From a virus, in the IMG/VR virus record IMGVR_UViG_3300034198_012754, positions 20,998 through 84,997 of that record: a stretch of DNA of 64,000 bases. One strand, written 5' to 3'. A program made the translations under genes and the position numbers. Below are positions 10,388-64,000 of the stretch, piece by piece (position 1 is the stretch's first letter; every line of letters starts with the position of its first letter). The notes beneath the pieces are model-generated. The model was not told the origin of the DNA and made no database searches. It saw nothing but the letters and a program-made list of their open reading frames with translations.

Positions 10388-12664
10388 ATGCAAAACAATC
10401 CTGAAATTGAACAAATTGTTGACGAAGCAGTCAAAATTGCTCGAACCAAGCAACATGAATATGTGCTGACAGAACATGTGTTGTTGGCCATGATTCGTCA
10501 TGTTGCCTTTCGCAAAGTGTTGGAAAAATACGGCACGGATGTGGTCATGTTTGAAGAAGAATTAGAGGCATACTTAAACAGCCTGGTCAATCTAATCAAA
10601 CAAGGCGACATACAACCCAAAAAGACCAATGCACTGGAACGTTGTTTTAATCGTGCTCTCACACAGGTGTTGTTCACAGGGCGTCGCAGTGTTACCACAG
10701 TGGATCTTTATTTGGCCATGATGTCCGAGACCAACAGTCATGCTCATTACTTCTTGTTGAAGTACGGTGTAAAGAAAGCTGAGTTCGTGGACTTCTACGG
10801 CAAGAACTACAACCAAAAGGATGTCAAGCTAAACACTCAGCAGGCCACAGAAGTGTTGGAAGAACACTGTACCAACCTCACAAGATTGGCTCAAGAAAAC
10901 AAGCTGGAACCCATGATTGGACGCAGTTCAGAATTGGATGAAATGATCACTGTGTTGGCCCGTCGATTCAAGGCCAATGTGCTGATGGTAGGCGATCCTG
11001 GTGTGGGCAAAACTGCCATTGTGGATGGCCTAGCACAGGAAATTATAGCAGGACGTGTGCCGGAGTTTCTTCGAGGCCACGAAGTATGGGGATTGGAAAT
11101 TGGATCTTTGTTGGCAGGCTCAAAATATCGCGGTGAATTTGAAGAGAAATTCAAGCAAGTAATTGGCGCATTGGAAAGCAAAGGCAATTGTATTTTGTTC
11201 ATTGACGAAGCGCACACCATGAAAGGTGCAGGTGCTGGCAATAATTCAAGCCTGGACTTTGCCAATATGTTGAAGCCAGCCATTACCAAAGGTAGTTTAA
11301 AAGTGGTGGCGTCAACCACATGGGAAGAATACTACGAATCATTTGAAAAAGATCGTGCCCTGATGCGTCGTTTCCATAGAGTGTCTGTGGATGAACCCAC
11401 AGCAGAAGTCACTGAGCAAATTCTCATTGGATTGAGCCCACGCTTGGAAACTTTCCACAATGTGATGATTGACACAGAAGCCATGACTGCTGCTGTGGAA
11501 TTATCAGGACGTTATATTCATGATCGTAAAAATCCCGACAAATCAATTGATTTGATTGATGGAGCCTGTGCTGGACAACGTGTAAAAGATCAGGGCAATG
11601 TGACCATTACAAAAGAAATGATTATGGCACAGTTGTCCCGAGTTGCTAATATTCCCTTGGATAGATTGCAAAATGAACGTTCAGCCAAGATTGTGGATTT
11701 GGAATCCAATATCAAGCAAAAGTTGTACGGGCAAGATGCCGCTGTTGATTCTGTGCTAGAGCGTGTGTATATCAACTTCTCAGGCATCGGCAATGAAAAC
11801 AGACCCATTGCGTCGTTCTTGTTCATGGGTCCAACAGGCACTGGCAAAACAGAATTGGCCAAATTATTAAGTGCAAATTTAGACATGCAGTTGCTGAAAT
11901 ACGACATGAGCGAATATCAAGAAAAGCATACTGTATCCAGTTTGATTGGTGCTCCTCCAGGATATGTGGGCTTTGAAGACGGCAACATAGGTGGCGGCAA
12001 GCTGATTTCAGACATTTCAAAAAATCCATTTTCGATCATTCTTTTTGACGAAATTGAAAAGGCTCATCCGGACGTGATCAATATCATGTTGCAGATGTTG
12101 GACGAAGGTAGATTGTCCAGTGCCAATGGTAAAACTGTGAATCTAAAGAACTGCATTATTGTTATGACGTCAAATTTGGGTGCCCGTGACAATGAACAAA
12201 ACAACATTGGTTTTGGACAGAGCCTGGAAAAGACAGGATCAGAAGACCGGGCCATGAAAGAGTTCTTCAAACCTGAATTACGCAATCGTATTGATCAAGT
12301 GTGCAAGTTTGTGAAATTAGACCAATTGGCCATCAAAAAGATTGTGATCAAATTTGTGGATCAATTGCAAACAAGTTTGAGTGTCAAAGGCATCCGATTA
12401 ACGCTCAGCGAAGCAGTGATTGATTTGTTGGCGGAAAAAGGCTACGATCCCAAAATGGGTGCCAGACCATTGTCACGCAAAATTGATGAATTAATTCGCG
12501 TGCCACTGAGTAAACGTATTTTGTTTGACCGATTGAGTGACTGTGTGTTGCATGCCGAACTTGACGGTGACGCAGTGACATTTGTGATACAAGAACCTAT
12601 ACCCGTTCCGGTGGTAGATGCGGATGGATACATTGTCCTTGACCCAACAAAGCCCAAACTTTAA
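10388..12664 (+). CDS. clpA: ClpA-like AAA+ unfoldase
   Basis: 758 residues, the same length as E. coli ClpA. It has an N-terminal Clp-N domain (about 1-140), a first AAA+ module (Walker A GDPGVGKT near residue 202, Walker B ILFIDEAH) and a second (Walker A GPTGTGKTE near 480, ILFDEIEKAH, C-terminal D2 small domain). There is no long ClpB middle domain, so it is an unfoldase rather than a disaggregase. NNIGFGQ near residue 607 keeps the IGF/IGL loop that docks on ClpP, so it could feed substrates to host ClpP. No phage clpP is in the window. Confidence 0.92.
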   Translation: MQNNPEIEQIVDEAVKIARTKQHEYVLTEHVLLAMIRHVAFRKVLEKYGTDVVMFEEELEAYLNSLVNLIKQGDIQPKKTNALERCFNRALTQVLFTGRRSVTTVDLYLAMMSETNSHAHYFLLKYGVKKAEFVDFYGKNYNQKDVKLNTQQATEVLEEHCTNLTRLAQENKLEPMIGRSSELDEMITVLARRFKANVLMVGDPGVGKTAIVDGLAQEIIAGRVPEFLRGHEVWGLEIGSLLAGSKYRGEFEEKFKQVIGALESKGNCILFIDEAHTMKGAGAGNNSSLDFANMLKPAITKGSLKVVASTTWEEYYESFEKDRALMRRFHRVSVDEPTAEVTEQILIGLSPRLETFHNVMIDTEAMTAAVELSGRYIHDRKNPDKSIDLIDGACAGQRVKDQGNVTITKEMIMAQLSRVANIPLDRLQNERSAKIVDLESNIKQKLYGQDAAVDSVLERVYINFSGIGNENRPIASFLFMGPTGTGKTELAKLLSANLDMQLLKYDMSEYQEKHTVSSLIGAPPGYVGFEDGNIGGGKLISDISKNPFSIILFDEIEKAHPDVINIMLQMLDEGRLSSANGKTVNLKNCIIVMTSNLGARDNEQNNIGFGQSLEKTGSEDRAMKEFFKPELRNRIDQVCKFVKLDQLAIKKIVIKFVDQLQTSLSVKGIRLTLSEAVIDLLAEKGYDPKMGARPLSRKIDELIRVPLSKRILFDRLSDCVLHAELDGDAVTFVIQEPIPVPVVDADGYIVLDPTKPKL

Positions 12665-16160: not shown

Positions 16161-19100
16161 ATGAACATCACAGAATTAGATTCCTATAATTTAGCAGATG
16201 CTGTTAAATTCAACAACACTTTAAATCCAGTGGTTTGGTCCGGGCAAAAAATGAAACCCGAGGTGCGTGAGCGCCTGTTGGCAATTGCCGAGGATTTTAA
16301 AGAATTTCTAGGACTCAGTGACATAGAAGTAAAAGACATTACTGTGTCAGGTAGCAATGCCGGATACACTTACACACCCTATTCAGACATTGATCTACAT
16401 CTAGTGGTAGATATTCCTCAGGCAGATGCCGATGATGTATATCGCGAACTGTTTGATGCCAAAAAGTATCAGTACAATGATCAACACAACATCACCATTG
16501 GCGGCTATGATGTAGAGCTCTATGTAGAAGATGCCCGCAAGCAACCTGTGAGCCAGGGCATATACAGTGTGCTGAACAATGACTGGGTAAAAATTCCACT
16601 CAAGCAACGTGCCACTGTCAACGACGAAGCAGTGAAGTCAAAGTATGAAGACATTGGACACAGAATTGAATCTGCTGTGGCTTCTCAGGATGGCGACGCC
16701 ATTGCAGAGTTGGCAAACAAAATCCGAAACATGCGTCAAGCTGGACTTGATGCACACGGTGAACTGGGTGCTGAAAACCTGGCCTTCAAGATGTTGCGCA
16801 ATCAAGGCGCAATTAAAAAATTATACAGTGCCAGAGCAGCAGCCAAAGATGCAGAGTTGAGTTTGAATGAACGCCGCAAAAAGAAAGCCAAAAAGAAAAA
16901 AGTAAAATACGGCTTTGGTGGATATTGGTATCCCGGATTTGGATTTGCCGGTTCCGGTGAAGCTCCTGCCGACGGTGGAGGAGGCGATGGTGGTGGTGGA
17001 GAAAGCATACAGGAATCTGCACCCACCACAGAAGACACTGTCACAGACTTTGTGAACTTTTGTGTTGAAAAATTAGGTATTGAAAACACGCCCCGGATAC
17101 GTTTCAAACGTGATCCTGTGTGGAGCAAACGCAACCGAACATTTGGCAGCTACAATCATGACACCAATGAATTGATTGTGAGCTTGGCCAATCGCCATGT
17201 CATGGACATATTGCGCACAGTAGCACACGAGCTCACACATCAGCGTCAAGGTGAAGTTGCTGACATACCTGACGATGCAGGTGTCACAGGCAGTGAATAC
17301 GAAAACGAAGCCAATGCTCAAGCTGGTGTGCTGATGCGTGAATACGGACAACTGCACCCTGAATTGTTTGATACTGAGCACACCATGGAAGCCACTTACA
17401 GTTTGGGCTCAAGCAAGATGTTCCAACGCGGCGACGGTGTAATTGATAACTATGGTCTCAAAATGTTGCCCAAGGGCGGAACTGTGATTCAACAGGTTGG
17501 TCACATGGTCACCATCACAGACGCTGACACAGGTGAAACTGTGAGATTGCCGGCCAACATGCTGGTACCTTTCAAACCTCGCCGAAAGCCCACACAAGAG
17601 GGTGTAAAAGAAAAGTTAGGTGCAATAGCAGCAGCCGCATGCATAGCAGGTACTCCTGGCTGTGCTACTACAACTGCTGGCACTGTTCGAGATGCACAAA
17701 CAGCGGCACGCACAGCACAAACAGTGAAAAACATGAACCGGGCCGGTGTCAAGGCCGAACTGGATCAAGAACTACAGAATTTTTTAAGAGCACAGGGTCA
17801 AGGTCCTGGATCAGCTAACGCAAAGAATCAAAGTCGTTTGTATCAGCTACAGAAACAGATGCAAAACAAAGATGATGTAAAAGAATCTTCGGGTTATATT
17901 CCCACACGTAAACAAGCAAAGCTACCACAGTTCAGCAATGCGTTGAGTGTGGATGTTCAGCCCGGAGCAGTGGGCAAAGAAGCCAACAAGTTGAGTTTGA
18001 ACACAGACAGTCAAGGACATCCTGAGTTACTGATCAAAGGTCTTAAGAATGCCCTACGCGAGTTCAAAGAAACTGGCCGTGTGAGCTCTAAACTAGATGC
18101 TCTAGGCAACCAACGACCGCCTGGTCCAGAATTCAAACCCACAATGCCAGCTGGCACGCTACGTGTGGATGTTTCAGATGTGTACGACTGGTACAAACTG
18201 GGTCAACATATTCCAAACATGAAAGGTCTAGGGCAACACGATTTTGGACAGGGTCCTCCTAGTACCATCATCAGCTTTGGTGACGAAGATACAGAACACA
18301 AGTTCATTGGTGACATAAAAGCCACAGGGCTGGATGTCACTGACATTGATCCTGTGGATCCTGTAAAACGTCCCGGTCCAAAGATCAAAACTGACCCCAC
18401 ATACAATGTGAATGAATTTGCACCCGGCCCTGGGCGTGACCGCAACGATGATGTTCCAGATCCTATTTTTGTGCTGGCCAATCGTTGGTGGAATGCCACA
18501 GACCGTCAACCGCAAATTGAATCTGTGTTAAACAGCCTGGGCTGGAGCATACGTCAAGTAGAATCCGAAGATGATGCTGTTCAACTGCAGCACAGAGATG
18601 GCACCACTCACTTTATTTCAGCTGATGATTTTGATCCTGACTTGTTTGAAAGTGTACAGCTAGACGAAGTCAAGATGAGTCCTTCAGCTCTGCGTAAGTT
18701 TGCTGATTCACCCGAAGCCGAAGGTATTTTGGCCGGCTTTGAAGCAGAATTGATATTCCGTGACACCAGCAGTGAAGATGACGACAGCGATGATGACATG
18801 GAAGCCGACATGGACATGGACGAACGTGCCTACAGTATTGAACAAGTTGTTGAATTTTTCTCCAACGACTACAGTGGATATGGCATGAGTGAACGTCAAG
18901 CCGATCGATTGAGAGACAGACTGGATGAAGCCTACTTTGAGTGGCGTGATGAACAAATCATGCGTGACTTTGAACAAGAGGCCGAAGACTTGATTCGTAA
19001 GGTGCTTGTTGACGAAGGCGATTGGGACAAAGACACTGAAATACAAAAACAGTTGGAGTTGTTGGATTTAACTGATGATGAAATGAATGAGATTATTCAA

Positions 19101-21407
19101 GCTGGCGAACGGGCTCCTCGCTTTACCAAATACAGCGATCAACAAGAATACGCCAAAGAAAATCCCCTGTATCAAAAATACATGGATGCCCAGAGCGCAG
19201 CAGAAGATCTATTGGATGCTCTAGTTGAAGATGAAGTTCGCAAACAAGGTGCAAACTGGGACGCTGCACTGGATGAATTCCGCAATGGCTACGATGCGGA
19301 TGATTCTGGCTTCTTTTCAGACATAGGTCTACGCTGGATGAGCGATGTCATGAACGAGTACAATTTGGATTGGCCTTACTACACCAACACCAGCAGCAGA
19401 AACGAAGGATCTCGTGACTGGTCTCAAATTGCTGCCGAACTTGAAACAGTACTGGGCAAACGTGTGGTTGTGGGATCAGGTTATCACTCCGCCCGTCGTG
19501 TGCCTAACGAATATGTGCTGGAGCCAGACTCAAGTTTGAGCCCAGATAATCGAGATGATGCTGGATTGGAACTTGTGAGTCCACCACTGCCATTGAATCA
19601 GGCCATTGAACAGATGGAAAAAGTGATTGCATGGGCCAATTCCGACGGTTATGCTTACACCAACGATTCAACAGGTTTGCACATGGGCATATCAATACCA
19701 TTCAAAGGTGGTGATGTTGACTACTTGAAATTGATCTTGTTCATGGGTGACGAGTATGTGCTGGACAAGTTTGGACGTGCTGCCAATACCTACACTGCTT
19801 CGGCCATGAAAAAGATCAAACAAAACGTGGCCAGTGGCAGTCCTAAGATTGCCTCTGCTGTAGAGTTGATGAAGAGCAATTTGCTTGAGTTAGCACAGAA
19901 ATATGTACAGCAAGGCGTGGGTGGTTCCAAATATACATCAGCACATATCAAGCCTGGCTATATTGAATTTAGATCACCTGGCGGCGATTACCTAAGCATA
20001 GGCGATCAGGGTGAAGCAGACGTGTTGGCATCAACCATGCGTCGCTTTGCCTATGCCATGTATCTAGCTGGTCGTCCTGACTTAGAGCGTCCTGAATACT
20101 ACAAAAAACTATACAAGCTAATTGCTCCTGAAGGCAACCGGGACCTGGAACTGTTCAGCAAGTTCAGTGCTGGTGAACTCACTGCTGAACAACTCAAAAA
20201 ACAATGGGCCGAAAAAGTAATCAACAAGGAAGTTCCTGATGGCACAGGAGGCAAGAGTTCGTGGAGGCTCTACAACAGATCCACCAACAAACCAGTTGAA
20301 GGCCTAGAGTTTTCAAACTACACAGAACTGGACGCACTGGAACGTGCCAAAGCTCGTGTGAGTCCGGCCAGTTCCATGATGGATTTCAAGCAGGCCTACG
20401 AACTGCGTGATGTGGGTACCAACACAGGTCAATGGCGTGTTATGCGCAAAGACAACAACGAAACATTGGAAATCATTGATGCTGCCACACGTGGCGAAGC
20501 CGCTGATCAGGCTCGTGAAAAGTACACTGATGTCATACCATTCTACATTGAGCCCTACGGCGGAGGAAAAACTGAACCCGAACCCAAACTCAGTCGCAGA
20601 GCCAAATTGGCCAAACAAATTGCTCAACCCAAAGACTATGTGGTATTGAACAAACACAGTGGCCTACCATTCTACACATTCCAGGCATCCAGTCAGGCTC
20701 AGGCTGTGGACTTTGCGATCACATACTTGCAGGACAAGAATTTGGACACAGGCAACTTCACAGTGCAACGAGCCACCGGTGTTAAACAAGCAGTGGACAA
20801 CGCTGTAGACAGCCAACGCCTACAACAACGTGTTCAGGCCACAGATCAGTACGAAATTGTGGATCGCAGAAACAATCGTGTGATACTACGGTACCGAGCA
20901 GATGATGCGGCGGATGCTGGTGACAAGTTTAGCAATTGGCTACGCAATCAAGGCATGCCTGCAGACACAGAAAACTATGGCTGGCGAGTAGCGCAAGCAG
21001 TGAATGATATTGAGCCAGATATAGCACAAAACTTTGACCGACCTCAAGATGCCACAGAAGTTCGCCGCAATTGGGAATTTGTGGATCGCATAACCGGACG
21101 GGTTATTCATTCAATGACCAATGCCAGTTATAACCAAGCCAATGTAGTGCAGACTAACCTGGAGCAACAGAATCCTGCGGCAGACATATATTTGCGTAGC
21201 GTAGATCCAAGACCCGAATTAGGCGAAAGCACAGAAAGTGATGCTGAACGAGCCAGAAAATTCATGAACATGGCTGCCCAAAAGAATGGCTACAGCAGTT
21301 GGGCCAGTGTGCCACAGTCAGCCAAGAATTCTGTGATGCTGTTAGCTGTGGAATACATGAACGACAAAAGACATCCTTACAACATGTTGGACCGGAAGAA
21401 AAAATGA
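16161..21407 (+). CDS. 1748-residue multidomain protein: nucleotidyltransferase, metallopeptidase, amidoligase-like
   Basis: The N-terminus has a polymerase-beta-type nucleotidyltransferase signature (GSNAGYTYTPYSDIDLHL, 64-81, with Asp76/Asp78). A Lys-rich linker and Gly-rich linker (about 235-285) follow. Next is a metallopeptidase-like domain with HExxH (HELTHQR, His356-His360) and a downstream ENEAN Glu. A long low-complexity region (about 450-700) leads to acidic helices (about 860-1050). Residues about 1080-1320 resemble an amidoligase (EPDSSL, GLELVSPPLP, STGLHMGISI, IEFRSPGG). Residues about 1365-1690 contain several copies of a 60-70 residue module (W/Y-x-I/V-x-D/N-R...). It ends in LDRKKK. 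Late promoter and position suggest a virion-internal protein delivered to the host. Confidence 0.75.
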   Translation: MNITELDSYNLADAVKFNNTLNPVVWSGQKMKPEVRERLLAIAEDFKEFLGLSDIEVKDITVSGSNAGYTYTPYSDIDLHLVVDIPQADADDVYRELFDAKKYQYNDQHNITIGGYDVELYVEDARKQPVSQGIYSVLNNDWVKIPLKQRATVNDEAVKSKYEDIGHRIESAVASQDGDAIAELANKIRNMRQAGLDAHGELGAENLAFKMLRNQGAIKKLYSARAAAKDAELSLNERRKKKAKKKKVKYGFGGYWYPGFGFAGSGEAPADGGGGDGGGGESIQESAPTTEDTVTDFVNFCVEKLGIENTPRIRFKRDPVWSKRNRTFGSYNHDTNELIVSLANRHVMDILRTVAHELTHQRQGEVADIPDDAGVTGSEYENEANAQAGVLMREYGQLHPELFDTEHTMEATYSLGSSKMFQRGDGVIDNYGLKMLPKGGTVIQQVGHMVTITDADTGETVRLPANMLVPFKPRRKPTQEGVKEKLGAIAAAACIAGTPGCATTTAGTVRDAQTAARTAQTVKNMNRAGVKAELDQELQNFLRAQGQGPGSANAKNQSRLYQLQKQMQNKDDVKESSGYIPTRKQAKLPQFSNALSVDVQPGAVGKEANKLSLNTDSQGHPELLIKGLKNALREFKETGRVSSKLDALGNQRPPGPEFKPTMPAGTLRVDVSDVYDWYKLGQHIPNMKGLGQHDFGQGPPSTIISFGDEDTEHKFIGDIKATGLDVTDIDPVDPVKRPGPKIKTDPTYNVNEFAPGPGRDRNDDVPDPIFVLANRWWNATDRQPQIESVLNSLGWSIRQVESEDDAVQLQHRDGTTHFISADDFDPDLFESVQLDEVKMSPSALRKFADSPEAEGILAGFEAELIFRDTSSEDDDSDDDMEADMDMDERAYSIEQVVEFFSNDYSGYGMSERQADRLRDRLDEAYFEWRDEQIMRDFEQEAEDLIRKVLVDEGDWDKDTEIQKQLELLDLTDDEMNEIIQAGERAPRFTKYSDQQEYAKENPLYQKYMDAQSAAEDLLDALVEDEVRKQGANWDAALDEFRNGYDADDSGFFSDIGLRWMSDVMNEYNLDWPYYTNTSSRNEGSRDWSQIAAELETVLGKRVVVGSGYHSARRVPNEYVLEPDSSLSPDNRDDAGLELVSPPLPLNQAIEQMEKVIAWANSDGYAYTNDSTGLHMGISIPFKGGDVDYLKLILFMGDEYVLDKFGRAANTYTASAMKKIKQNVASGSPKIASAVELMKSNLLELAQKYVQQGVGGSKYTSAHIKPGYIEFRSPGGDYLSIGDQGEADVLASTMRRFAYAMYLAGRPDLERPEYYKKLYKLIAPEGNRDLELFSKFSAGELTAEQLKKQWAEKVINKEVPDGTGGKSSWRLYNRSTNKPVEGLEFSNYTELDALERAKARVSPASSMMDFKQAYELRDVGTNTGQWRVMRKDNNETLEIIDAATRGEAADQAREKYTDVIPFYIEPYGGGKTEPEPKLSRRAKLAKQIAQPKDYVVLNKHSGLPFYTFQASSQAQAVDFAITYLQDKNLDTGNFTVQRATGVKQAVDNAVDSQRLQQRVQATDQYEIVDRRNNRVILRYRADDAADAGDKFSNWLRNQGMPADTENYGWRVAQAVNDIEPDIAQNFDRPQDATEVRRNWEFVDRITGRVIHSMTNASYNQANVVQTNLEQQNPAADIYLRSVDPRPELGESTESDAERARKFMNMAAQKNGYSSWASVPQSAKNSVMLLAVEYMNDKRHPYNMLDRKKK
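20250..21210 (+). repeat. Degenerate tandem protein module in the giant protein
   Basis: At least four degenerate repeats of roughly 60-75 residues: beginnings SWRLYNRSTNKPV, YVVLNKHSGLPFYTF, YEIVDRRNNRVILRY and WEFVDRITGRVIHSM, each followed by an Ala/Asp-rich helix. A related unit (YEIYHAETPDKIVHSF) occurs in the next protein (21404 gene), implying module exchange. Confidence 0.65.
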
Positions 21408-61984: not shown

Positions 61985-62054
61985 GCATTTTAGAAAAAAT
62001 GCATGGTGGGTCGGGCTTTACAACTTACGCACGGTGAAACCACCGTGCGTTTTT
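61985..62054. terminator. Two hairpins downstream of 61820 gene, possible terminators
   Basis: First hairpin TGCATTTT (about 61984-61991)/AAAATGCA (61996-62003). Second hairpin ACGCACGGTG (62027-62036)/CACCGTGCGT (62041-62050) with loop AAAC and TTTT after it on the plus strand. The second is also the 3' coding end of the HNH gene on the other strand. Confidence 0.55.
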
Positions 62055-62545
62055 GTTCCTCGTAAACAAGCATTTGCAAAAGTATTAGGATTAAACCTGT
62101 GATCTTCACACCATTGTTTTAATCCAGTAACAACCTCTATTAGACCGTCGGGTGTAGTAATTTCATACAACTTGCCATTCCAACTTTTTGTTCTATTATT
62201 TTTAGAATACGATTCTTTCATTTGCTTGCTTTGCTTGACTTTTTCGGCAGGATCTTTCCATCGTAAGTTAGACTTTGCGGCTCCAGCTTTTCCGGCCTCG
62301 CTTAATCGTATTGGTACCAAATCTTGCTTAGTAGATAGTTGAGACAACCCTTGCCAAGCAACATAATCTTGCCAGCGGCCGTTTTCTTCGTAAAGTGTCT
62401 TATGAGCATTGGCGTGTTCTTCGACTGTAAGCTCGACTAAGTTAGTAGGATCATCGGTTCCGCCCATGTGGCGCGGAATGATATGATGTTTATGTTTCAT
62501 AATATTATTTATGTCGAAACCGTAATATTTGACAACATTCGACAT
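62018..62545 (-). CDS. HNH homing endonuclease
   Basis: 175 residues on the minus strand (or 160 if translation starts at the second Met, MKHKHHIIP). KHHIIPRHMGGTDDPTNLVE and LTVEEHANAHKTLY form the HNH (His-Asn-His) nuclease core. The KAGAAKSNLRWKDPAEKVKQ region and the C-terminal ITTPDGLIEVVTGLKQWCED (NUMOD-like) and NPNTFANACLRG fit a DNA-binding tail. Free-standing mobile gene, abutting the tmRNA gene on the opposite strand. Its start region overlaps the tmRNA promoter. Confidence 0.88.
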   Translation of the reverse strand: MSNVVKYYGFDINNIMKHKHHIIPRHMGGTDDPTNLVELTVEEHANAHKTLYEENGRWQDYVAWQGLSQLSTKQDLVPIRLSEAGKAGAAKSNLRWKDPAEKVKQSKQMKESYSKNNRTKSWNGKLYEITTPDGLIEVVTGLKQWCEDHRFNPNTFANACLRGTKTHGGFTVRKL

Positions 62546-62559
62546 TTGTGTTATAAATA
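62529..62559 (+). promoter_or_regulatory. Promoter of the tmRNA gene, sigma70 and late-type overlapping
   Basis: TTGACA (62529-62534), 17-base spacer, TATAAA (62552-62557). The -10 is embedded in TATAAATA (62552-62559), the exact T4 late promoter consensus. It could be read early and late. Confidence 0.7.
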
Positions 62560-62579
62560 TAAGTTATTGTTGTATGAAG

Positions 62580-62842
62580 CAAAGAGAAAAGTGTTCAAGA
62601 CATGGGTTCGAATCCCATCACCTCCACCTAAGTGTATAAGGTATATTTAGGTGGGGGTGCTCCGGTAATCGATTGGACAAAGAGTAAATGAGTGGACAAC
62701 AGGGGAATGTGAAACTCCTTAGGACTGGGGATACCCGGTTGTAGAAGCAAAACACGTAAATGCAAACGACGCACAGTTCGCTTTAGCAGCCTAAACACTG
62801 CTTAGGGTTTGGCCAGTTTTCCTCGTAACAGAATAAGCTGGC
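62580..62842 (+). ncRNA. ssrA: Circularly permuted tmRNA (ssrA)
   Basis: The 3' acceptor piece comes first: T stem ATGGG/CCCAT with loop TTCGAAT (62602-62618), acceptor strand CACCTCC (62619-62625) and ACC. A short intervening loop follows. The 5' piece begins GGGGGTG (62653-62659), pairing with CACCTCC over 7 bp and keeping the G3-U70 alanine identity pair. P2 is TGTTCAA (62592-62598) with TTGGACA (62673-62679). The tag frame GCA...TAA (62762-62794) encodes ANDAQFALAA, and the stop lies in a CCTAA/TTAGG hairpin like P5. Permutation implies a two-piece RNA after processing. CCA is not fully encoded. Rescues stalled ribosomes and tags products for ClpXP/ClpAP. Confidence 0.93.
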
Positions 62843-62882
62843 ATGTTTGTAACACAACTATAATCTCAAAAAGGAAGAACAC

Positions 62883-63062
62883 ATGCAATCAGTAGACCAT
62901 ACAAAATTGCACGAAGCAATCGTCCAAAAGGCGTTTGATGCTACTTCCGCTTTTTTAACCAAAGAGCAGACACAGCAACTCGTGCAGAACAAAATCAATC
63001 GAGCTCGATCCATGCTTGATGCACGCACACAACTGCCTGTGGCATGGCACACCGACCGCTGA
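62883..63062 (+). CDS. Small hypothetical protein
   Basis: 59 residues, SD AAGGAAG. Helical (HEAIVQKAFDATSAFLTKEQ, QLVQNKINRARSMLDARTQL). No motif recognised. It sits between the tmRNA and tRNA-Glu. A TATAAT (62859-62864) lies upstream without a clear -35. Confidence 0.6.
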   Translation: MQSVDHTKLHEAIVQKAFDATSAFLTKEQTQQLVQNKINRARSMLDARTQLPVAWHTDR

Positions 63063-63087: not shown

Positions 63088-63162
63088 GTCCCGTTCGTCT
63101 ATCGGTTAGGACACCCGCCTTTCACGCAGGTAAGAGGAGTTCGATTCTCCTACGGGACGCCA
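63088..63162 (+). tRNA. tRNA-Glu (TTC)
   Basis: Acceptor GTCCCGT/ACGGGAC, D arm CGTCTATCGGTTAGGACA, anticodon loop CTTTCAC (TTC), T arm GAGGAGTTCGATTCTCC, discriminator G and encoded CCA. One C-A mismatch in the anticodon stem (CCCGC/GCAGG). Confidence 0.93.
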
Positions 63163-63219: not shown

Positions 63220-63441
63220 ATGCCGTTGATTGAAAGCCGTGGTACCCAAATAAACACACAACGCTGTGTGGTCAATGCCAACAGTAACCAATATGATTTG
63301 GTGTTGATGGCAGCTGCACGTGCCAAAGAAATCAAACGTCTAAATCAATCCAGTATGCGTCAAGAGCATGTGGGTGCACCTGTCTCAGCATTGTTGGAAA
63401 TTCAACGTGGCGAAGTCTCTATTGACTACGTAAACAAATAA
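63220..63441 (+). CDS. RNA polymerase omega subunit-like protein
   Basis: 73 residues from ATG 63220. SNQYDLVLMAAARAKEIKRL aligns with the RpoZ core (NRFDLVLVAARRARQ in E. coli), and PVSALLEIQRGEVS with the conserved ALREIxxG helix. Omega binds the beta-prime C-terminus, aids assembly and anchors ppGpp. A phage copy might replace or compete with host omega to reprogramme transcription. Strong own promoter and SD. Confidence 0.75.
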   Translation: MPLIESRGTQINTQRCVVNANSNQYDLVLMAAARAKEIKRLNQSSMRQEHVGAPVSALLEIQRGEVSIDYVNK

Positions 63442-63841: not shown

Positions 63842-64000
63842 ATGCCAACATTAAAAGGTAGTAAAACAGAAGAGTGCTTGAAAGAAGCTTTTGCTGGTGA
63901 GTCAATGGCTAATCGCCGTTATTTGTATTTCGCGAACATGTGCGATATCGCTGGTGAGAACGACACAGCAGCATTGTTCCGTTCAACAGCTGAAGGCGAA
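63842..64000 (+). CDS. rbr: Rubrerythrin, N-terminal part
   Basis: 53 residues, truncated by the window end. GSKTEECLKEAFAGESMANR then RYLYFANMCDIAGEN is the classical rubrerythrin opening with the first di-iron Glu (E in GESMANR). Rubrerythrins reduce hydrogen peroxide in a di-iron/rubredoxin mechanism. It has its own strong promoter and SD (AAAGGAAA). A phage-borne rubrerythrin, together with the Dps-like protein at 25 kb, suggests protection from oxidative stress. Confidence 0.88.
   Translation, partial: MPTLKGSKTEECLKEAFAGESMANRRYLYFANMCDIAGENDTAALFRSTAEGE

Follow-up and report, generated by a model that had tools for sequence, protein, structure and literature searches.

The window analysed here, a stretch of 64,000 nucleotides that corresponds to positions 20998-84997 of an IMG/VR virus record of 84,997 bases, carries at 62567-62842 (+) a circularly permuted tmRNA of the two-piece type in which every described part is present. 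To judge from its sequence, this phage gene appears intact in its permuted form. We consider it likely that it would serve productive ribosome rescue and tagging during infection, with fragments delivered to a Clp protease, and that its tag half has been exchanged.

Two Rfam covariance models matched this interval, tmRNA_permuted (RF04321) with 108.7 bits (gathering score 47 bits) and beta_tmRNA (RF01850) with 102.1 bits (gathering score 84 bits); the E values of the two matches, 2.9e-20 and 6.3e-30, are far beyond chance. ARAGORN called a permuted tmRNA at 62537-62885 with the tag ANDAQFALAA. Together, these results bear out an earlier note on this DNA, which had claimed a permuted tmRNA on a phage and had proposed the covariance-model search. 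In line with the RF04321 architecture, the order is acceptor/T-arm piece, intervening sequence, coding piece. For the 3' terminal stem of RF01850 no counterpart was matched in the Rfam alignment, and no riboswitch was found in the window at the Rfam threshold. The features of the locus are listed below; where no basis is given for a part of the tmRNA, the assignment was read from the letters.

62018-62545 (-): HNH homing-type endonuclease gene, directly upstream of the tmRNA and divergent from it (phrog_655, homing endonuclease, E 1.2e-15)
62529-62534 and 62552-62557 (+): putative sigma-70-like promoter, TTGACA and TATAAA separated by 17 nt (by eye, 11 of 12 consensus bases)
62567-62628 (+): 3' (acceptor) piece, comprising P2 strands, T-arm, acceptor strand and ACC (Rfam alignments, ARAGORN and compensatory changes in 40 related cores)
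62569-62573 and 62696-62700 (+): upper P2 strands, GUUGU and ACAAC
62592-62598 and 62673-62679 (+): lower P2 strands, UGUUCAA and UUGGACA
62602-62618 (+): T-arm, GGGTTCGAATCCC
62619-62625 (+): acceptor 3' strand, CACCUCC
62626-62628 (+): ACC after the acceptor strand
62629-62652 (+): intervening sequence of 24 nt, TAAGTGTATAAGGTATATTTAGGT (fold z -3.3; identical in 22 loci, window included)
62653-62700 (+): 5' tRNA-like part of the coding piece, comprising the acceptor strand with G3-U70, D region and P2 strands (Rfam, ARAGORN and related cores)
62653-62659 (+): acceptor 5' strand, GGGGGUG, forming 7 bp with a G-U third pair
62701-62842 (+): mRNA-like domain, apparently from another phage tmRNA line (identity comparison and informative-site test)
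62762-62794 (+): tag reading frame, ANDAQFALAA and UAA (ARAGORN)
62790-62806 (+): P5-like hairpin, CCTAA-ACACTGC-TTAGG, containing the stop codon
62812-62842 (+): 3' hairpin, GCCAG/CTGGC around TTTTCCTCGTAACAGAATAAG (compensatory variants in relatives)
63088-63162 (+): tRNA-Glu(TTC), just downstream of the tmRNA, an order shared with relatives L005 and L006

The structural elements claimed previously were all located: the two halves pair into a 7-bp acceptor stem with G3-U70, both strand pairs of P2 are present, and the tag frame, in which ARAGORN found a resume codon and a stop, ends in ALAA with its stop inside the P5-like hairpin. The span then given, 62580-62842, has the correct end, but the omission of the GUUGU strand of P2 puts its start some 12 nt too far downstream. 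CCA is encoded without its final A and has a T in that place; the RF01850 consensus likewise has a non-A base at this position. The intervening sequence, which is expected to be removed in processing, is predicted to lengthen the acceptor stem into a single 19-bp hairpin, and the fold of 62564-62712 beats nearly all shuffles (z -3.3). A promoter/terminator scan returned nothing at the locus by its own rules, since these demand that the second hexamer end in T and so missed TTGACA-17-TATAAA. The gene is probably transcribed from this promoter of its own.

Selection on the structure was assessed in 126 related permuted tmRNAs (seven on bacterial contigs), which yielded 40 distinct tRNA-like cores. 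Core selection made partial use of acceptor and T-arm pairing and no use of P2. At the first two P2 pairs, 24 cores have U-A,U-A and 16 have C-G,A-U, with no broken pair among the 40. The third acceptor pair is G-U in all 40 cores and the T-stem pairs also covary, both in elements whose pairing was partly a selection criterion. The 3' hairpin has compensatory variants in relatives as well (GCCAG/CTGGC, GTAGG/CCTAC and GATAGG/CCTATC). Loci L099, L109 and L151, and also L111, L140 and L152, are tmRNA-like with paired T-stems and non-canonical T-loops (for instance GGCAGTA, not TTCGANT).

The two parts of the window gene have different closest relatives. Its tRNA-like segments match those of the viral contigs L003, L008 and L009, which carry the tags ANADTFEFGALNFTGNTVRGAANEGRFALAA, ANASTGEVTVSGKNVKFSARTVKAESFAV and ANANTGEVTVSGKNVKFSARSAKATLAV, respectively, at 100% and 98% identity, and those of L005/L006, with the tag ANDELYALAA, at 100/95%. 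The mRNA-like domains of these five loci share merely 49-53% identity with that of the window, which is 86% identical to the domain of L018 and its kin; the tRNA-like segments of the latter reach about 70%. In five trios, informative sites split 17-18 versus 0-1 in the tRNA-like part and 5-10 versus 21-53 in the mRNA-like part (Fisher p 4.7e-10 to 8.9e-13, weakest trio 3.4e-8), which places a breakpoint near 62700, past P2. A tree of the tRNA-like part rejects grouping with the ANDAQ line (p 1e-4). The tree of the tag half, with few columns, does not reject the alternative grouping (p 0.25), and the mosaic claim therefore rests on the informative-site test. By this test the window tmRNA reads as a mosaic whose tag half was acquired from a different phage tmRNA line.

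The neighbourhood offers a candidate driver of such module exchange, the HNH gene at 62018-62545 (-), the product of which scores just under the cut-off against Pfam HNH. GIY-YIG genes lie directly upstream of the tmRNA in L003 and L004; L009 has an HNH gene near its tmRNA. Co-conversion of flanking DNA by homing endonucleases is established in T4-type phages and would explain the swap of one gene half. We propose that the tag half was swapped between phages by recombination, plausibly helped by the adjoining homing endonucleases. The same adjacency, here and near relatives, together with the patchy occurrence of tmRNA among phages (PMC9004378), would also fit a functionless, decaying gene that was captured and hitchhikes with these endonucleases. 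We hold this to be highly improbable: there are no signs of decay, pairing changes are compensatory in the 40 cores with G3-U70 invariant, tags are coding-constrained, and about 160 related intact genes occur on viral contigs.

This constraint is seen in a large and varied set of tags. Because the viral contigs were sampled by means of sequence patterns, with near-duplicates among them, the following counts are not frequencies. Among 163 permuted tmRNAs from viral contigs we count 47 distinct tags, 10-33 amino acids in length and often situated behind near-identical tRNA-like halves; 62 of these tmRNAs have ANDAQFALAA. Some tag calls, e.g. AKNVNANDAQFALAA, are possibly start-codon ambiguities. 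Fourteen distinct tags occur at the 22 loci, window included, that share the identical 24-nt intervening sequence; a second tRNA-like type, with an identical 27-nt 5' segment, has 15 tags at 95 loci, ANDAQFALAA in 41 of them. Tags of 20-33 amino acids that are coding-constrained, some ending in FAV or LAV and not LAA, are found at L003, L008, L009, L095, L112, L118, L121 and other loci. Codon differences in the long tags are 39 synonymous versus 33 non-synonymous and are distributed 24/19/50 over the three codon positions. The C-terminus is LAA in 36 of the 47 tags and MAA, FAV, LAV, IAA, VAA, RAA or VLA in the rest. The preference for LAA and the coding constraint on long tags argue for selection on the translated tag. 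The many unrelated tags behind near-identical halves constitute a natural set of tag variants, which suggests selection on the fate of tagged proteins during infection.

The tag of the window gene was compared with bacterial genomes, as had been proposed. It does differ from the common ANDERFALAA: Burkholderiales sampled for permuted tmRNA have ANDERFALAA, ANDEHFAIAA, ANDENFALAA, ANDESYALAA and ANDENFAMAA. The exact coding pattern of ANDAQFALAA followed by TAA was present on 65 viral contigs; in 84,980 prokaryote species genomes it did not occur. In the same species genomes an AND[A/E/D]Q pattern gave 16 matches, all ANDEQFALAA and 15 of them in one-piece genes; the sole permuted one, L082, comes from a MAG contig of 3 kb that is possibly viral. 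The earlier idea that this tag could redirect tagging is conjectural; as the window tag retains AND...ALAA, it is expected to be readable by ordinary Clp unfoldases.

A phage tmRNA might also act as a decoy or inhibitor that competes with host tmRNA for SmpB, AlaRS or EF-Tu and does no productive tagging. There is a precedent in mycobacteriophage DS6A, whose tag-less tmRNA-like RNA has been reported in this role, as summarised in PMC11915505, and the window's tRNA-like type is phage-specific insofar as it is found in 0 of 399 Burkholderiales genomes. Unlike the DS6A RNA, however, that of the window retains a full tag frame, a stop codon and mRNA-like hairpins, and the coding constraint on the tags of relatives would be needless for a decoy. 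We consequently regard a decoy as improbable and favour productive tagging.

A betaproteobacterial origin is only a possible reading of the RF01850 match. RF01850 also scores on cultured phages of Stenotrophomonas, Xanthomonas and Alcaligenes, and the tRNA-like type is absent from the 399 Burkholderiales genomes. Attribution of a host from the tmRNA type was rejected, since phages whose hosts are not betaproteobacteria also carry RF01850-type genes. That the contig is bacterial or chimeric and the tmRNA a host gene is barely conceivable; the record is a metagenomic fragment on which no terminase was detected, but it has phage matches for a clamp loader, a virion structural protein, an exonuclease, an endolysin and a DNA polymerase (51% to Sinorhizobium phage Phosso), the same tRNA-like half lies on a 315-kb record that also carries terminase, and the pattern is missing from the Burkholderiales genomes. 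Elsewhere in the window are a 1748-aa protein mostly without known family (16161-21407, +), a small protein weakly similar to RNA polymerase omega/Rpb6 (63220-63441, +; 24.6 bits, below the cut-off of 26) and the beginning of a rubrerythrin gene that is truncated at the end of the record (63842-64000, +). On the crAss-like phage cr50_1, a RAGATH-22 RNA (L261 54-220) precedes a permuted tmRNA by about 0.5 kb.

The window also encodes a potential partner for its tag:

10388-12664 (+): ClpA-like AAA+ unfoldase of 758 aa with an IGF loop, NNIGFGQ (TIGR02639 ClpA, 794 bits; PDB match)

The best PDB match of this protein is E. coli ClpA (E 6.8e-176); because its 794 bits fall below the equivalog cut-off of 993, we call it ClpA-like only. 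It is 66% identical to the homologue on the 315-kb record G004 (L264, L265). On that record a tmRNA with the tag ANDELYALAA is combined with ClpA, two proteins of the ClpP family and a ClpX that bears a zinc finger, which amounts to almost a complete tag-and-degrade pathway. Full-length ClpA homologues are encoded on 6 of 40 tmRNA-bearing virus records, and all six, the window's included, keep IGF(G) in the ClpP-docking-type loop ([IL]G[FL]). ClpX-like genes occur on 4 of the 40 and ClpP-family genes on 25, many of the 40 being near-duplicates. Neither ClpP nor ClpS was found on the window's 85-kb record. SmpB was detected neither there nor on the 39 other tmRNA virus records, most of them fragments, and host SmpB is thus presumably used. 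In two ANDAQFALAA-type contigs (L018 1820-2377; L070 6172-6732, -), the tmRNA is followed after about 1.1 kb by a ClpP-family gene that lies beside a cell-wall hydrolase gene; in L035 a GroES-like gene adjoins the tmRNA. ClpP is present in one of eight cultured phages with permuted tmRNA, compared with 25 of 40 metagenomic records, and many phage ClpP-family proteins are annotated as head maturation proteases, which makes the tmRNA-Clp link a lead and no rule; the association may be partly a lineage effect or unrelated.

These data bear on what tag variation means. The tags could differ neutrally, through recombination and drift, in an ordinary rescue RNA, with host ClpXP degrading any AND...LAA alike and phage ClpA serving virion assembly, host-protein degradation or another task. 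LAA ends most phage tags, bacterial tags vary too, ClpA accompanies just 6 of 40 tmRNAs, and ClpA/ClpX of jumbo phages have been discussed as translocases or assembly factors (PMC7824862); yet tags of 20-33 amino acids and the ends FAV, LAV, RAA and VLA in close relatives look beyond drift of a fixed degron. We give neutrality a little less than an even chance. As it concerns the meaning of tag variation only, it is compatible with the core of our preferred explanation, productive rescue by an intact tmRNA with an exchanged tag half. A bolder proposal, that large phages possess a self-contained tag-and-destroy pathway in which a fast-evolving, exchangeable tag cassette is matched to phage Clp unfoldases and peptidase and directs stalled-ribosome proteins to a phage-controlled protease, seems to us rather unlikely.

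Under productive rescue, host tRNA-processing enzymes would excise the intervening sequence and CCA would be completed, the two RNA pieces being held together by P1/P2 pairing. Host AlaRS would charge the phage tmRNA via G3-U70. Together with host SmpB, it would enter ribosomes stalled on broken mRNA during infection, add the tag and free the ribosome; tagged fragments would be degraded by host ClpXP/ClpAP or by phage ClpA docked on ClpP. The benefit would lie in ribosome rescue and fragment clearance as mRNA is cleaved and host gene expression falls. If confirmed, this would mean that phages control, beyond translation through tRNAs, how ribosomes are rescued and what becomes of the products of rescue, a control that the phage ClpA-tag pair makes directly testable.

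Permuted tmRNAs of phages have been published before, in cultured phages too (PMC9004378), so that their existence alone is not new. ARAGORN assigned 53 of 133 unique tmRNA structures from 18,146 phage genomes to the two-piece type (PMC9004378), and a 2025 tmRNA database holds 79 phage sequences (PMC11915505). The published genes of Methylophilales phage Melnitz and Pelagibacter phage Mosig (PMC9004378) are, like that of the window, complete permuted tmRNAs on large phages with the same proposed roles. Mosig, however, is an alpha_tmRNA by score and the window gene a beta_tmRNA, the tag in this comparison is GEDNFALAA (ARAGORN) versus ANDAQFALAA, and the window gene is mosaic. Permuted tmRNAs also occur on Stenotrophomonas Menderavirus, Xanthomonas phages XacN1, X1 and Rb1 and Alcaligenes phage QDWS595; those of Menderavirus, XacN1 and QDWS595 score in RF01850, as the window's does. 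Only short stretches of these cultured-phage tmRNAs align with L018, a relative of the window gene, and their tags differ from the window's (e.g. VAANDDSYTVRIAA, ANANTFDYALAA and ANDNVYAAAA). Among 50,697 phage records, blastn with the window tmRNA as query gave no match to the whole gene. In the literature searched, whose coverage is incomplete, we came across no description of mosaic phage tmRNAs, comparable tag variability or a tmRNA-ClpA/ClpX/ClpP combination. With betaproteobacterial RF01850 tmRNA the window gene shares architecture, acceptor-first order, P2, tag frame and stop hairpin, but its D-arm/P2 signature is TCGATTG/CAAGAC instead of TCGACAG/CTGGAC and it is AT-rich. The bacterial tmRNA-ClpAP/ClpXP pathway is paralleled by an AND...ALAA tag and an E. 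coli-type ClpA homologue on the same record; unlike in bacteria, the partners would come partly from the phage and partly from the host; neither SmpB nor ClpP was found on the record. The mosaic gene, the hypervariable tags, the virus-only ANDAQFALAA pattern in our searches and the co-encoded ClpA-like unfoldase extend beyond what is known of phage tmRNA.
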